A stretch of DNA of 40,707 bases from assembly GCA_017623935.1 (NCBI GenBank), contig JAGAOC010000058.1, positions 1-40,707 on the forward strand. Direction: 5' to 3'. Made by a program: the position numbers and the translations under genes. The notes beneath the pieces were generated by a model. That model worked only from the letters and a program-made list of their open reading frames with translations, did no database searches and had not been told where the DNA came from. Source of the DNA: Agathobacter sp. (GTDB taxonomy: Bacteria > Bacillota > Clostridia > Lachnospirales > Lachnospiraceae). Below are positions 14,267 to 38,000 of this stretch, piece after piece (within the stretch, counting starts at the first letter, position 1; every line of letters begins with the position of its first letter).

Positions 14267-14407
14267 CTATTCTTCTTCCAGAAGTTCCTCATCATCTTCA
14301 ATTGCCGCAACTGCTCCTGATACAGACGCTACTACTGCAATGACTGTAACAATGATTACTACTAAGATCAATATAAAAAAGAATACTAAAAAACCGCCTT
14401 CTGTCAT
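14267..14407 (-). CDS. Small single-helix membrane protein, 46 residues
   Basis: A short protein beginning MTEGGFLVFFFILILVVII. It has one long hydrophobic helix (about residues 6-36) and an acidic cytoplasmic or external tail (EDDEELLEEE). The start at 14407 has GGGAG about 8 nt upstream; an in-frame ATG five codons earlier lacks a ribosome binding site. It has its own promoter (14450-14478) and a strong terminator (14205-14235), so it is a complete monocistronic unit. I do not recognise the family. Size and layout fit small membrane peptides that modulate larger membrane complexes, but nothing here proves a partner. Confidence 0.78.
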   Translation of the reverse strand: MTEGGFLVFFFILILVVIIVTVIAVVASVSGAVAAIEDDEELLEEE

Positions 14408-14449
14408 TTCTTCATCTCCCATATGCAAATCCGTTAATTTATATTGTCC

Positions 14450-14478
14450 ATTTTAACATAAAAATATGGGTTTTACAA
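14450..14478 (-). promoter_or_regulatory. Promoter of the 46-residue membrane protein gene
   Basis: TTGTAA (14473-14478) and TAAAAT (14450-14455) on the minus strand, spaced 17 nt, about 43 nt before the start codon. Confidence 0.6.
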
Positions 14479-14501
14479 TGTAAAAAAGATTATGCTCTTT
14501 T

Positions 14502-15296
14502 CTATTTTTTCCAGCTGATCCATTCCTTGATCTGCTTTCCTGTCTCTACATAGAATTCATCGGTATAATGAGCCGGGAATGGTCCCCATTTATGATTGGC
14601 ATATCCCATGACCTTCTCTGGAGCGATCAGGAAATAAGATTTTTCCTCTTCTGCATATTCCCCTAAGACTTCTTTCATAATGGAATAGACTCTATGCAAT
14701 CTCTCGTTAGCATGAAGGATTTCCTCTGTATTCTCATATTCTGTAATGTTTCCTTCATCATCTATCATCTGGTCAGCATAATAAGTCTCAATCAAAATAA
14801 TCTGATCAATGGAAAATACCTGCAGCAGTTCTCCAATAGATAACTTAAAATTCTTTCGTATCTCTTCATCCGTGTAATCATCAAGGGATAATTCCCGATA
14901 TGCCGTCGCCTTATCTTTTAAATACTTGTCATAGTAGTTTTCAAAATGACCTGATTGGATACAGCGATAACTTTTTCCATCTATCTCAAATTCCGCAAGA
15001 TCAAACCGCTCTTCGATCAGATCCATGACCACATAATCCGCATCTGCTTCCTTTGCCATGTTCAGACAATTCTTAGAGACTTCCGCCACCATCATCTTGA
15101 CTTCCCACGGAAAATCATCCAGATAGTCCATATCCAGTTCTTCATATGTAACCGGATATCCCTCCAAAGGCATGAGGGCATAAGACATTCGCTGAATATT
15201 TAATGTCACCTCAAAGTCTTCTTCTGCTGTATGATTGAATACGTCCCTGGAAATACAGGAACCAAATGTAAAGATCTTCGTACTTTTCTCCGACAT
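14502..15296 (-). CDS. DUF6270-type protein (GSC-SRD motif)
   Basis: A 264-residue soluble protein with the N-terminal signature FTFGSCISRDVFN, which I associate with DUF6270 proteins. The GSC-x-SRD block looks like an SGNH-hydrolase-type start. Near the C-terminus NHKWGPFPAHYTDEFY supplies a His and Asp that could complete such a site. Relatives I know of are often found near polysaccharide or glycan genes, which would suggest acyl or glycan modification; no substrate can be given. It starts 10 nt after the stop of the AT-rich gene at 15307, with AAGGAGG inside the gap and no terminator between, so it is probably the fourth gene of that operon. Its base composition is nearer the chromosome average than the three AT-rich genes. 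Confidence 0.75.
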   Translation of the reverse strand: MSEKSTKIFTFGSCISRDVFNHTAEEDFEVTLNIQRMSYALMPLEGYPVTYEELDMDYLDDFPWEVKMMVAEVSKNCLNMAKEADADYVVMDLIEERFDLAEFEIDGKSYRCIQSGHFENYYDKYLKDKATAYRELSLDDYTDEEIRKNFKLSIGELLQVFSIDQIILIETYYADQMIDDEGNITEYENTEEILHANERLHRVYSIMKEVLGEYAEEEKSYFLIAPEKVMGYANHKWGPFPAHYTDEFYVETGKQIKEWISWKK

Positions 15297-15306
15297 ATGT
15301 GCCTCC

Positions 15307-16068
15307 TTAGGCTAATTGTAAATAATCATTTAATCCGCTACATCTATCAAATATCGATTTTTCTTTTAAATCAATCAACTTATCTCTTGTGGTTTTTTCT
15401 TTACAACAATACTTGCATTGTACATCGCAAACATTATTACATTGCTGTTCTGTCATATTTGCCTGAATCTGTGTGCAATCTTTTACCCAACACTCTGCAT
15501 TTTTATCAAAACATTGACCACTTTTCGTTATTTGAAAGTATCCATTTATCATTTTGCTAGTCTCTACAAGCAAATAATTTAAAAAGTGTTCTCTATTGGA
15601 AAGATTCGTATTTTCTATCTGCTTAATGTAGCCTTGCACGACTGGATCAACATAATAATCAATCGCATCTTTAATGCATTGACTAACAAACCCAACTATG
15701 TCCCAATCCTTATAATTGCACGATAACTTTACCAACTCATCATATGATAAATATAACTCTTCAAAACAATAATATGTTGTGTATTGAAAAGTTACCCCTG
15801 CTCTTTTACATCGTGCAGCTGTCTTTATGATAAAATCACTTGGTACATAATTCTTTGTATTTGCAATATTATCAAACGCCACAAAAAGAATATCGCCTTT
15901 TTGAATCTTAGTAAATACATTTGTTACTTGTTCTTGTAATCGTGTATTTCCGCCTCCACCTACTGACAGTGGTTCTAATACATAATTTTCTGCTCCCATA
16001 AATGTATCTGCAACTATTTTCCAAAAATCTCGAGCAGAATTCTTGTCCTCAGTAACTATATAAAGCAT
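15307..16068 (-). CDS. Unknown protein, TOPRIM/RloB-like N-terminus and Cys-rich C-terminus
   Basis: A 253-residue protein with no confident family. The first half has a strand-acid pattern MLYIVTEDKNS (Glu7), a glycine-rich SVGGGGNTRL, a second strand ending in an acid, ILFVAFDNI (Asp66), and YYCFEELYLSYDEL (Glu103/104). This order resembles TOPRIM-type nucleases such as RloB, where an early Glu, a DxD strand and a CFE-W-LLHF motif occur; that is my inference. The last 50 residues contain eight cysteines (GQC, AEC, KDC, QQC, NVC, VQC, YCC), likely a metal cluster. Start 16068 is preferred because its ATG overlaps the ATPase stop (TAATG) with AAAGGG 9 nt before. Strongly AT-rich. Confidence 0.7.
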   Translation of the reverse strand: MLYIVTEDKNSARDFWKIVADTFMGAENYVLEPLSVGGGGNTRLQEQVTNVFTKIQKGDILFVAFDNIANTKNYVPSDFIIKTAARCKRAGVTFQYTTYYCFEELYLSYDELVKLSCNYKDWDIVGFVSQCIKDAIDYYVDPVVQGYIKQIENTNLSNREHFLNYLLVETSKMINGYFQITKSGQCFDKNAECWVKDCTQIQANMTEQQCNNVCDVQCKYCCKEKTTRDKLIDLKEKSIFDRCSGLNDYLQLA

Positions 16069-16526
16069 TAATACCATCCCTTTATATCAAATAAATATTC
16101 TAAAACTGTTTCGTTATCCTTATTATCTTTCTTCAATTCTGCAAAATGGTTTGGCGATAGATCAATTCCCATCGCTTTTCTTAAAAATAATAAATATCGA
16201 TTTTCTCTATCATGATTAATATAATCCACTATTTTATCATTTAAAATAAATTCAGCTCTATCAATGATAATTAATTTATTTTTCTGATCTACTAGTTTTT
16301 CTACATTGTCATCCGTTAAAATAAATACATTATCCGCATTATATGGCTTTAGTGACTTATTCTTATCTTTTGAAATATTACTTAGCAAGGTACAGATCAA
16401 TGTTTTTCCTGTTGCACTATCTCCTGAAACAATTGTCTTGTCGCCTTTAAATTTCAGATTAAATTTATTTTCATTTTTATCTGCAAATTTCAGTATGTTG
16501 CGTTCCCAGTTATAACAATTCTCCAT
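16068..16526 (-). CDS. Small P-loop ATPase, unknown function
   Basis: A 152-residue protein with a Walker A motif SGDSATGKT (about residues 34-42) and a Walker B-like strand KLIIIDRAEFIL (about 84-95). In Walker B a single Asp is followed by Arg, and the catalytic Glu may be that of AEF. No arginine finger, ABC signature or second domain is visible, so it is much shorter than usual AAA, ABC or OLD-type ATPases. It may act as a small NTP-dependent switch, or need partners. It has AAAGGA 7 nt before its ATG, starts 16 nt after the DUF4869-like gene, and overlaps the downstream gene by one base. The sequence is very AT-rich: 12 G/C in the 60 bases from 16081. Confidence 0.78.
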   Translation of the reverse strand: MENCYNWERNILKFADKNENKFNLKFKGDKTIVSGDSATGKTLICTLLSNISKDKNKSLKPYNADNVFILTDDNVEKLVDQKNKLIIIDRAEFILNDKIVDYINHDRENRYLLFLRKAMGIDLSPNHFAELKKDNKDNETVLEYLFDIKGWY

Positions 16527-16542
16527 TTTATGATCCTTTCAC

Positions 16543-16998
16543 TTAAAAATCAATCATAGAACTGATATGCCTTTTCCCATCAATACAATAATCCCTATCC
16601 GAACATTTATAAGTATTATTACTATGTTGTAAAAGCACCTCTATATCATCTTCATTTTTCTCGATCAATCGGAATAATTCTTCAAGCGCATTCCACCCAC
16701 ATTCAATTGCATTGATTGCTTTTATTGTAGGATAAATCTGTGGATTTTCATAGATAAATAAATAATTTAATACCGTTTTACACCCGCTAGACAGATCTTC
16801 AATATTACATTCTCCATAAGGTGTTCTAATTTTACCTGTATTGACATCCAACAACTCTGCATTATCTATTTTTTTCATAACTCCAATACTGTCGTCGTGA
16901 AAAGATTTTGCAGTTACATTTAATCGAAAAAAAGATTCATTATCTATTATAAGTTCATTGTCTAGATATTTTGTTTCATCAGTGCTGATATTTATCAT
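16543..16998 (-). CDS. DUF4869-like protein, first gene of the AT-rich cassette
   Basis: A 151-residue soluble protein. The segment DLSSGCKTVLNYLFI, then AIECGWNALEELFRL and EDDIEVLLQHS, is arranged like DUF4869 proteins as I remember them (an LSGGVKTL block, a cysteine-containing helix, then a strand ending in LHHLMDF). I treat this as a likely but unproven match. It begins an operon: a good promoter lies 29 nt upstream (17027-17055), and the previous gene's terminator is just before that. The ribosome binding site is weak (AGGT). The last residues are HISSMIDF. No known activity. AT-rich like its two downstream neighbours. Confidence 0.68.
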   Translation of the reverse strand: MINISTDETKYLDNELIIDNESFFRLNVTAKSFHDDSIGVMKKIDNAELLDVNTGKIRTPYGECNIEDLSSGCKTVLNYLFIYENPQIYPTIKAINAIECGWNALEELFRLIEKNEDDIEVLLQHSNNTYKCSDRDYCIDGKRHISSMIDF

Positions 16999-17026
16999 AT
17001 AGACCTACTTTCAAATTTTTCTTTCT

Positions 17027-17055
17027 ATTATAACGCTGAATTAGTAAAAATACAA
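17027..17055 (-). promoter_or_regulatory. Promoter of the AT-rich cassette
   Basis: A perfect TATAAT (17027-17032) with TTGTAT (17050-17055) 17 nt upstream on the minus strand. It sits between the deacetylase terminator and the first cassette gene, so the cassette is its own transcription unit. Confidence 0.75.
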
Positions 17056-17075
17056 ATTTCTAGTATTAGATTTTC

Positions 17076-17112
17076 AAAAACAAAACAAGGAGCACCGTTA
17101 TAGTGTTCCTTG
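17076..17112 (-). terminator. Rho-independent terminator after the PdaB-like gene
   Basis: Arms CAAGGAGCAC (17086-17095) and GTGTTCCTTG (17103-17112), 10 bp with one G-U pair and a 7-nt loop. TTTTGTTTTT follows on the minus strand. Confidence 0.85.
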
Positions 17113-17143
17113 CATTGATCATCGTTATTTATTTAATATAATC

Positions 17144-35037: not shown

Positions 35038-38000
35038 TTATGCTCTTCCTGTCATAACTCCATTTACGATCTTCCATTTAAATCCTGCATAGGTGCAGTA
35101 TCCAGTATATTTGAAATTAACAACACCTTTGTCTACATAATACCAGGTATTATTTCTGTTCGCCATACCGGTATACTTAAAGTTCACAACACCTTTTTCT
35201 ACATAGAACCAGTTTCCATTGTATTTGCAAAGTCCGGTATACTTCCAATTCAGTACACTCTTCTCTACATAGAACCACTGTCCATTATACTTGCAAAGTC
35301 CAGTGTCTTTCCAATTCAACTGTCCTTTTGTTACGTAGAACCACTGACCTGCGTGTTTTACAAGTCCGGTGTAATTCCAGTTCAGCTTGCCGCCTGCTAC
35401 ATAGAACCAGGTTCCACTGTGCTTGCAAAGTCCGGTGTAATTCCAGTTCAGCTTACCGCCTGCTACGTAGAACCACTGGCCTGCATGTTTTACAAGTCCG
35501 GTGTAATTCCAGTTCAGTTTACCGCCTGCTACATAGAACCAATTTCCATTGTACTTGCAAAGTCCGGTATATTTCCAGTTTAATACACCTTTTTCTACAT
35601 AGAACCAGGTTCCGTTATACTTGCAAAGTCCGGTATATTTCCAATTCAGTACACCTTTTTCTACGTAGAACCACTGGCTTGCATGTTTTGCAAGTCCGGT
35701 GTAATCCCAATTCAGCACACCTTTTTCTACATAGAACCACTGGCCTGCATGTTTTACAAGTCCTGTATAGTTCTCTTCAACTTCATCCTCTACTACGTAG
35801 TACCATGTTCCGTCAATCTTCACAAGACCAGTATACTTCACTTCATCGCCTGAACCTGTGTCATCGCCTGAGCCTGTGTCATCGCCTGAGCCTGTGTCAT
35901 CGCCTGAGCCGCTGTCGTCGCCTGAGCCACTGTCGTCTCCTGAGCCGCTATCGTCGCCTGAGCCACTATCGTCGCCTGAGCCGCTGTCGTCTCCTGAGCC
36001 ACTGTCGTCTCCTGAACCACTGTCATCTCCTGAGCCACTATCGTCGCCTGAGCCACTATCGTCTCCTGAGCCGCTGTCGTCGCCTGAGCCACTGTCGTCT
36101 CCTGAGCCACTGTCGTCTCCTGAGCCACTGTCGTCTCCTGAACCACTGTCGTCTCCTGAGTCTGTGTCAGTTACGGTTACAGTACAGCTTGCGCTTACTC
36201 CGCTTCCATCCTTCGCTGTTACGGTGATGGTTGCTGTTCCAGCTGCTACTGCTGTTACTTTTCCATTCTCATCTACTGTTGCTACGGTTTCGTCGCTTGA
36301 CTTCCAGCTTACAGTCTTGTCTGTTGCATCTTCTGGTGTAATTGTCACACCTAAAGTCTCTGTTGCATCTTTCTCTAATGATAAAGTGTCTTTTGACAGA
36401 GTGATCTCGGTTACTTTCACTTCCACAGGAGCTGGTAAAGTTACGGTTACAGTACAGCTTGCGCTTACTCCGCTTCCATCCTGTGCGGTTACAGTAATGG
36501 TTGCTGTTCCGGCTGCTACTGCTGTTACTTTTCCGTTCTCATCTACTGTTGCTATGCTTTCGTCACTTGACTTCCAGCTTACTGTCTTGTCTGTTGCATC
36601 TTCTGGTGTAATTGTCACACTTAAAGTCTCTGTTGCATCTTTCTCTAATGATAAAGTATCTTTTGACAGAGTGATCTCGGTTACTTTCACTTCATCCGGA
36701 GCCGGTACTGTTACCGTTACAACGCAACTTGCGCTCACACTGCTTCCATCTTTCGCTGTTGCAGTGATGGTTGCCTCTCCTTCTGCCAGTGCTGTTACTT
36801 TTCCGTTCTCATCTACTGTTGCTACTAAATCATTGCTGCTTTCCCAGCTTACTTCTGTGTTATCTGCATCTTCTGGTGTTACTGTTGCTGTCAATGTATA
36901 ATCAGCATTTACATTCAGTGTCAATGTATCTGCAGAAAGAGTGATATTCTCTACTGGAATAGGTCTTGTATTCTGAACATATACAGAATCCTCATCTACC
37001 AGTTCTCCCTGTACCAGTACCAGTGCAGAAAGTGCGTCAACAGTTACACTGCTTGCAGCCATGGTTCCAAGGGAGGTATTTCCTGCCTTTTCTCCATTAA
37101 TACAAACTGTCCAATCACCTGAGATTCCATTTGAGGTAAGATCAAAGGTCTTAGCAGCTGTATTTGCATTAAAGATTACAATAATGCCGTCAGAAACTTC
37201 TTCTTCCACAAAGTTTCCTGTCTCATCTGTAGCATCTCCATCAATTGTGAACATTACTACTTCATTGGTGAGCCAGATATACTCTACATATTCAGATACT
37301 GCATCTGCTGTAGAGAGACGAAGTCCTGCATGATTCTTACGGAACTCGATCAGTCCCTTATAATAATCATTTACTGCCTGATATTCTTCTTCATTCAGAT
37401 TATCCCATTTCAGGCTATTTACATAATCAGAAGAATTGTAACTATTATGAATTACTGTTCCATTTTCATCTACCTTGGTACGAAGCATTTCTTCGCCGGC
37501 ATGGATCAATGGAATACCCTCTGCTGTCAGATAGATTGCTGCAGCCAGATTATTCATCTTAATTCTCTGTGCTTCGGTATAAGATCCAGTTGTTACATTG
37601 ATCTTATCTTTTAAGGTGTAGTTATCATGGCAGGATGCATAGTTAATGATCTGAGATGGATTGGATGTCCACCAGTTTCTTGCCATGAAATTGCTTGCTA
37701 ATGTTTCTTCCTGTCCAGTCAATCCGTTAATATAACCAAGAGATGTCTCATCATTCTTTCCTTTTAACAGATCACGAATGGTATCGCTGAAATATGCGAA
37801 ACCAGGTGTCAAGGAAGCATTGCCCTGTTTTGATAAGGAAACATCTTTACCTGTTGCGGTAGAATCCATATCCCATCCTTCTCCATAGAAAATGATGTCT
37901 GGATCTATCTCATGAACTGATTCTACTACATCATTGATCGTATCAGTATCTAACAGACCTACTAAGTCAAAACGGAAACCATCAATGTGGTACTCTTCTG

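Follow-up and report, generated by a model that had tools for sequence, protein, structure and literature searches.

The 40,707-nucleotide stretch of Agathobacter sp. DNA analysed here (contig JAGAOC010000058.1 of assembly GCA_017623935.1; hereafter the window) carries a cluster of three short minus-strand genes, and the question it raises is what these genes do together. Gene A (16543..16998) encodes a DUF4869-like protein of 151 amino acids with an LSSGCKT motif, resembling the signature of ATP-binding cassette (ABC) ATPases, at residues 69–75 and without a Walker A motif. Gene B (16068..16526) encodes a mini P-loop ATPase of 152 amino acids with a Walker A motif (GDSATGKT) and a Walker-B-like motif (LIIIDRAE) and without an ABC signature, and gene C (15307..16077) encodes a TOPRIM-like, cysteine-containing putative effector of 256 amino acids with conserved acidic, cysteine and lysine residues. 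An earlier reading made without database searches (the sequence-only reading) had described three short, tightly spaced genes, and the three minus-strand open reading frames (ORFs) were confirmed, with 16 nucleotides between A and B and one base common to the stop codon of B and the start codon of C (TAATG). The 256-amino acid form of C begins at ATG 16077; ATG 16068, inside the TAATG, gives 253 amino acids as in the closest relatives and is probably the true start. The likeliest reading of the trio is a mobile sensor-effector module with an ABC-type ATPase carried on two genes, a reading built on its conservation as a unit at unrelated sites under purifying selection, the partition of motifs between A and B, the ABC-like structural neighbours of A, the asymmetric loss of C and the existence of B–C fusions.

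The conservation of the trio was followed in a sample of 299 genomes of the family, the window's own included (the family was taken as Lachnospiraceae, judging by named relatives), and in a scan of named genomes in which 139 of 168 pattern matches were confirmed and the best 80 of the 139 loci were analysed. A first search with B gave matches in 32 genomes of the family sample, with A- and C-like proteins as neighbours. Alignment-based profiles detected 106 A places in 59 genomes of this sample, 86 B places in 55 and 39 C places in 33. Here 72 of 83 full-length A lay within 1.5 kb of a B on the same strand, 78 of the 86 B adjoined an A and 34 of the 39 C adjoined an A or a B, the remaining five being partial matches; a C match was found near 25 of the 40 short B that adjoin an A. 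At the named loci B followed A in 80 of 80 cases (at L077 B is cut by the contig end) and C was found at 71, with the gene orders A-B-C (54 loci), C-A-B (13), A-B only (9) and split or doubled parts (4). Across 60 cassettes, the pairwise distances measured with any one of the three genes agree with those of the others (r 0.98). The genes are under purifying selection: the ratio of nonsynonymous to synonymous substitution rates (dN/dS) lies between 0 and 0.26 for 40 of the 42 comparisons made, and exceeds 1 in two where dS is about 0.01. The closest relative of the window's cassette was found in Lachnospiraceae bacterium GAM79 (L042), with A 50% identical. The trio had been proposed to be a conserved unit and these data bear this out; the two outcomes set beforehand as fatal to the proposal, that the genes fail to co-occur elsewhere or that they clearly match a system already described, were not observed.

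A was named DUF4869-like in the sequence-only reading as well. The window protein itself matches Pfam PF16163 (DUF4869) below the gathering cut-off (E 5.6e-4, 20.2 bits against 28.9), and when window A is taken with the 25 relatives aligned to it, all 26 reach E≤1 against the family, the best value being 4.3e-62. PF16163 carries no function in Pfam, and its model matched neither the window's own genome nor any of 398 genomes at phylum level, a type of search that cannot show absence. The signature motif is present in 81 of 81 A proteins (80 of these were selected by it) and also in sets that were not so selected, and a Walker A motif is present in none of the 81. For B the picture is the reverse: all 81 have Walker A together with a Walker-B-like motif of the form hhhDxx[DE], and none has an LSxGx[KR] signature, so that across the A and B pair Walker A, Walker B-like and LSxG signature motifs are all present. 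The P-loop of B is unmistakable, as the sequence-only reading had it.

A search of the Protein Data Bank (PDB) sequences gave no match for A and only P-loop stretches for B. The structure model of A is confident, and the structures nearest to it are ATPases of ABC/SMC/Rad50 type, AriA of the PARIS system among them, each match being weak by itself; the 50 listed rows of each fold-search list are all ABC-class or Csn2, with Rad50 and SMC heads ranking high. The SMC signature is LSGGEKS/T, which the motif of A, LS(S/T)GCKT, resembles. A differs from SMC and Rad50 heads in having neither a coiled coil nor a Walker A motif, the latter lying on a separate gene. The best reading is that A and B are the halves of one ABC-type ATPase on two genes. 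The DUF4869 protein had been taken for a sensor or regulator, in place of which its fold and motifs rather suggest half of an ATPase.

More distant forms exist as well. In a sister branch, the gene after A encodes a protein of about 325 amino acids that joins B to a C-like domain; 34 such long B adjoin an A, and five of them give weak matches to the C profile (E 1e-4 to 1e-3). The signature of A in this branch is LSGG, and a Glu follows the Walker B Asp in B (by eye). Fused forms were found on an Agathobacter rectalis record labelled plasmid and on a 900-kb record of Collinsella aerofaciens (Actinomycetota) also labelled plasmid, and the Ruminococcus albus conjugative plasmid pRUMAL02 (L124:1593-5996) carries a short DUF4869 gene, an IS21 transposase pair and then a B-C-like gene. 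Genome G208 has a second, divergent trio (149, 181 and 292 amino acids) immediately upstream of one of its cassettes (L032:2864-4719), and the same DNA precedes the cassette of L044. By eye, its first protein carries LSSGER, its second GDNAVGKT and VLVLDELD, and its third FED...FDLDDN...CYETL, which is the same motif partition as in A and B. In hhalign comparisons its first protein did not align significantly with A, nor its third with C (probabilities under 1%), and the P-loop of its second protein reached 71% across 25 residues. A search of 184 other genomes gave no match to the C-like third protein. It should also be noted that G208 (L032–L039) contains 13 DUF4869-like and 10 B places of differing branches, as if it were accumulating modules; L043–L045 and L065 are probably from the same genome.

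It may be asked whether A and B form an ABC-type ATPase at all. DUF4869 could be an unrelated regulator, B a complete P-loop NTPase of non-ABC type and the LSxGxKT motif a coincidence, which would be compatible with any of the other alternatives discussed below. The individual fold scores of A are weak, profiles of A and B show no likeness to one another, and B, with its generic P-loop profile matches, falls to AAA_22 (26 of 28 members) and nSTAND3 (21 of 28) no less easily than to models of ABC type. However, the uniform ABC-class or Csn2 content of the listed A fold-search rows, the LSGG of the fused branch and the repeated motif partition of the second trio argue against coincidence, and this alternative is considered unlikely.

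For gene C, the conserved residues are E10, D11, D69, E106, E163, C196, C201, C221 and K233. Of the acidic motif, E10 is present in 54 of 56 members and D69 and E106 in all 56. A second acid, D73, is present in 52 of 56, with a DxxxD spacing rather than the DxD of TOPRIM, and is Asn in window C. By topology and acidic residues C is plausibly TOPRIM-like, with no firm match in fold searches; AriB was not among the fold matches listed, which excludes nothing. Window C matched no Pfam family at E≤10 and gave only chance-level matches to PDB sequences, and hhalign found no match between C and an ATPase-linked putative nuclease in L096. The assignment to a TOPRIM/RloB-like family has no Pfam support, RloB (PF13707) being matched by one of 21 aligned members at E 0.09, and a TOPRIM nature of C is plausible. 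A serine recombinase was also considered for C and set aside because there is no conserved N-terminal Ser, position 14 being Ala in 42 of 56.

C is frequently decayed while A and B persist. All 21 full-length C matches (four with an internal stop) adjoin an A or B by hand count, and no intact full-length C without these partners was seen in the family sample. C is often broken with A and B kept, full-length C was not seen alone and B-C-like fusions exist; together these facts suggest an effector that is costly to its host and gated in the manner of PARIS. The same asymmetry would be expected of a plain toxin-antitoxin system, in which C is the toxin, A and B jointly the antitoxin, and the genes are retained by addiction with no sensing of phage. 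The many divergent copies in one genome (13 A places in G208) would suit such a system, and there is a precedent in NetFlax, where AAA proteins (D29) are described as antitoxins of TOPRIM_OLD/RloB-like (D44) toxins (PMC10440598). Yet A and B are under purifying selection and are present without C, which goes beyond the needs of an antitoxin. The border between toxin-antitoxin and abortive defence is thin, and the plain form is regarded as a lesser possibility, rather improbable on balance.

The location of the cassette bears on how it was acquired. Comparison within the genus places it in a variable site (14480..17143, minus strand, borders approximate) between a polysaccharide deacetylase gene and a small membrane ORF before an RND efflux gene. 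Of the 60 genomes in the genus set, the window's own included, 31 have a match to the upstream nucleosidase-deacetylase DNA, to both genes or to one. Of 12 such regions fetched, two end at contig ends shortly past the deacetylase gene, six reach the RND gene and four have no RND gene in the stretch read. In three of the six (L144, L146 and L150) the interval between the deacetylase and RND genes measures only 511–1041 bp and holds a small membrane ORF, also present in the window (by eye). The other three (L143, L145 and L147) have other cargo there, namely 452-amino acid ATPase-like, 1177-amino acid and 1302-amino acid proteins. As relatives have this interval (14400–17143 in the window) empty or otherwise filled, A-B-C and a DUF6270 gene (14502..15296, minus strand, E 1.9e-25) are seen to occupy a variable site. 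The DUF6270 gene begins 10 nucleotides past C and has a GC content of 39.2%, ordinary for the window; its DNA was not matched in 59 congeners, and it is probably a second cargo of the same site and not part of the trio system.

The cassette itself has a GC content of 29.8%, against a mean of 41.3% (standard deviation 1.7, minimum 38.2%) in 707 other stretches of equal length from the window, and a third-position GC of 0.22–0.24 against 0.51 in the upstream deacetylase gene. The AT-richness reported earlier is therefore real, its counts of 12 and 34 G/C in two 60-base segments being exact. Cassettes 97.9% identical from −142 bp of A to +31 bp of C occur in different organisms (L079 and L085) between unrelated flanks, and those of L066 and L107 are 91.1% identical from −187 to +1, again with unrelated flanks; longer common flanks exist in other pairs, e.g., L054/L057 and L098/L099. 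Horizontal acquisition, as proposed in the sequence-only reading, is thus supported by the low GC content, the three empty sites and the near-identical cassettes in unrelated surroundings. As regards individual surroundings, the GAM79 cassette follows a penicillin-binding-protein-like ORF (L042:4753-5901) that seems to be cut short, as if an island had interrupted it; a transposase and a methylase-like fragment lie downstream (by eye). The cassettes of Eubacterium sp. MSJ-13 (L090:2626-7545) and Butyribacter intestini (L095:2742-7545) lie behind cas5/cas3-type genes, assigned by inference from size and order.

A trio that moves could also be the agent of its own movement, i.e., a mobilising or DNA-processing machine in which an ATPase and a TOPRIM- or recombinase-like protein drive insertion. 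This is very improbable, as neither common ends, a common flank sequence nor a recombinase was seen by eye at 28 loci, the G208 copies are divergent and not fresh transpositions, and C has no conserved Ser close to its N terminus.

That the operon serves housekeeping or regulation unrelated to phage, such as stress-dependent RNA processing, was likewise weighed. The commonest Pfam families of neighbouring genes, among the matches listed, are ordinary, and no relative of B was confirmed in the viral contigs scanned, nor were any of eight pattern matches to LS[TS]GCKTxL in such contigs; window C gave no match to plasmids, phages or viral contigs. However, the fused form matches five unannotated 'Bacteriophage sp.' faecal scaffolds (one record marked UNVERIFIED), a short-branch B matches one further such scaffold at 89.5%, and B has weak PHROG matches (best E 2e-4), by which a clean absence of the module from viruses is weakened. 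The distribution is also patchy for a housekeeping function, with A in only 59 of the 299 genomes and no match to window C in 97 further relatives, of which 59 are congeners (many of the assemblies are incomplete), and frequent decay of C, low GC content and varying sites speak against it, so that such a role is judged doubtful. Of 290 neighbouring ORFs 249 were scanned, 11 of at least 900 amino acids and 30 chosen by eye (mostly short, some of them cassette genes) being left out. The PADLOC matches among 131 neighbours (half of the set) included three type I specificity subunits and three AriA-model proteins. As these are raw counts with no control set, no enrichment of defence genes is claimed, and the defence role that the sequence-only reading thought possible is a predicted one.

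For expression of the cassette, a possible promoter (TTGTAT-17-TATAAT, 17027..17055, minus strand) was picked out by eye, with TATAAT at 17027–17032 and a weak TTGTAT (17050–17055) 17 nucleotides upstream. An imperfect terminator-like hairpin of the preceding deacetylase gene (17076..17112, minus strand) was likewise seen, its stem (17088–17112) having 9 bp with one A-C mismatch and a T-rich tail. The letters of the TATAAT promoter claimed earlier are present and the hairpin is visible. Nevertheless, a promoter consensus scan did not list the TATAAT site and counted 17 local promoter-like sites against a shuffled mean of 15.1 (standard deviation 3.5), and a terminator scan of the region detected none; neither signal therefore has support beyond chance. 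Elsewhere in the window, a long SGDD-type acidic repeat (35838–36300) was seen by eye in a 1878-amino acid amylase/pullulanase-like protein with C-terminal wall-binding-like repeats.

In PARIS, AriA is described as an ABC ATPase hexamer that keeps the Toprim RNase AriB sequestered until a phage trigger sets AriB free; fusions of the two proteins also occur (PMC12409363; PMC10568477). A comparable scheme would have B bind ATP through its Walker A and B motifs and A supply the signature motif, closing over the bound ATP in trans. The composite ATPase might sense an intruder or disturbance and would hold C inactive, as AriA holds AriB; upon a trigger, C would be freed or activated, nucleic acid would be cut and growth would stop. 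An A–B complex, use of ATP, nuclease activity and toxicity of C, a trigger and an anti-phage role are what such a scheme predicts, and the switch-plus-effector function proposed in the sequence-only reading is supported to the extent of this inference. That A-B-C is a horizontally moving, self-contained module in which a split ABC-type ATPase gates a TOPRIM-like effector is given an even chance. The general form of this proposal, in which DUF4869 proteins are P-loop-less ABC/SMC-type half-ATPases lending their signature in trans to a signature-less P-loop mini-ATPase, and the composite gates a TOPRIM-like effector, is held with belief and doubt in equal measure; it would amount to a natural case of a split ABC ATPase and to an immune architecture of a new kind, on a cassette of about 1.7 kb without its own transposase. 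DUF4869, an unsolved Pfam family, would gain a testable role as the half that completes an ATPase. If true, an ABC ATPase with its motif sets on separate genes, and as small as 151 and 152 amino acids, would suit the study of how closure of an ATP site gates an effector.

With regard to known systems, Pfam and PADLOC gave no match naming the trio, the PADLOC profiles (AriA and AriB included) matching none of the three window proteins with any family at E≤10, and a literature search on DUF4869, split ABC ATPases and related terms, supplements being outside its reach, found no paper. The module would add a frequent gut-bacterial member, invisible to PADLOC, to the ATPase/TOPRIM systems. OLD family nucleases, Gabija and Retron-Eco8 have ATPase and Toprim on one polypeptide in classes 1–3, whereas the parts seen here are spread over three genes, or over two where B and C are fused. 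NetFlax pairs resemble the trio in joining an AAA protein to a TOPRIM-like toxin but comprise two genes and not three, with no DUF4869 partner seen in the available part of the report (PMC10440598). PARIS, with AriA and the Toprim tRNase AriB, is the nearest worked example, to which the trio may be likened. In AriA a single ABC ATPase chain carries both Walker A and signature. In the trio these motifs are split over two small proteins, and C is unrecognisable as AriB by sequence. With its ATPase motifs divided in this way and no PADLOC profile matching, the trio is not a member of PARIS.
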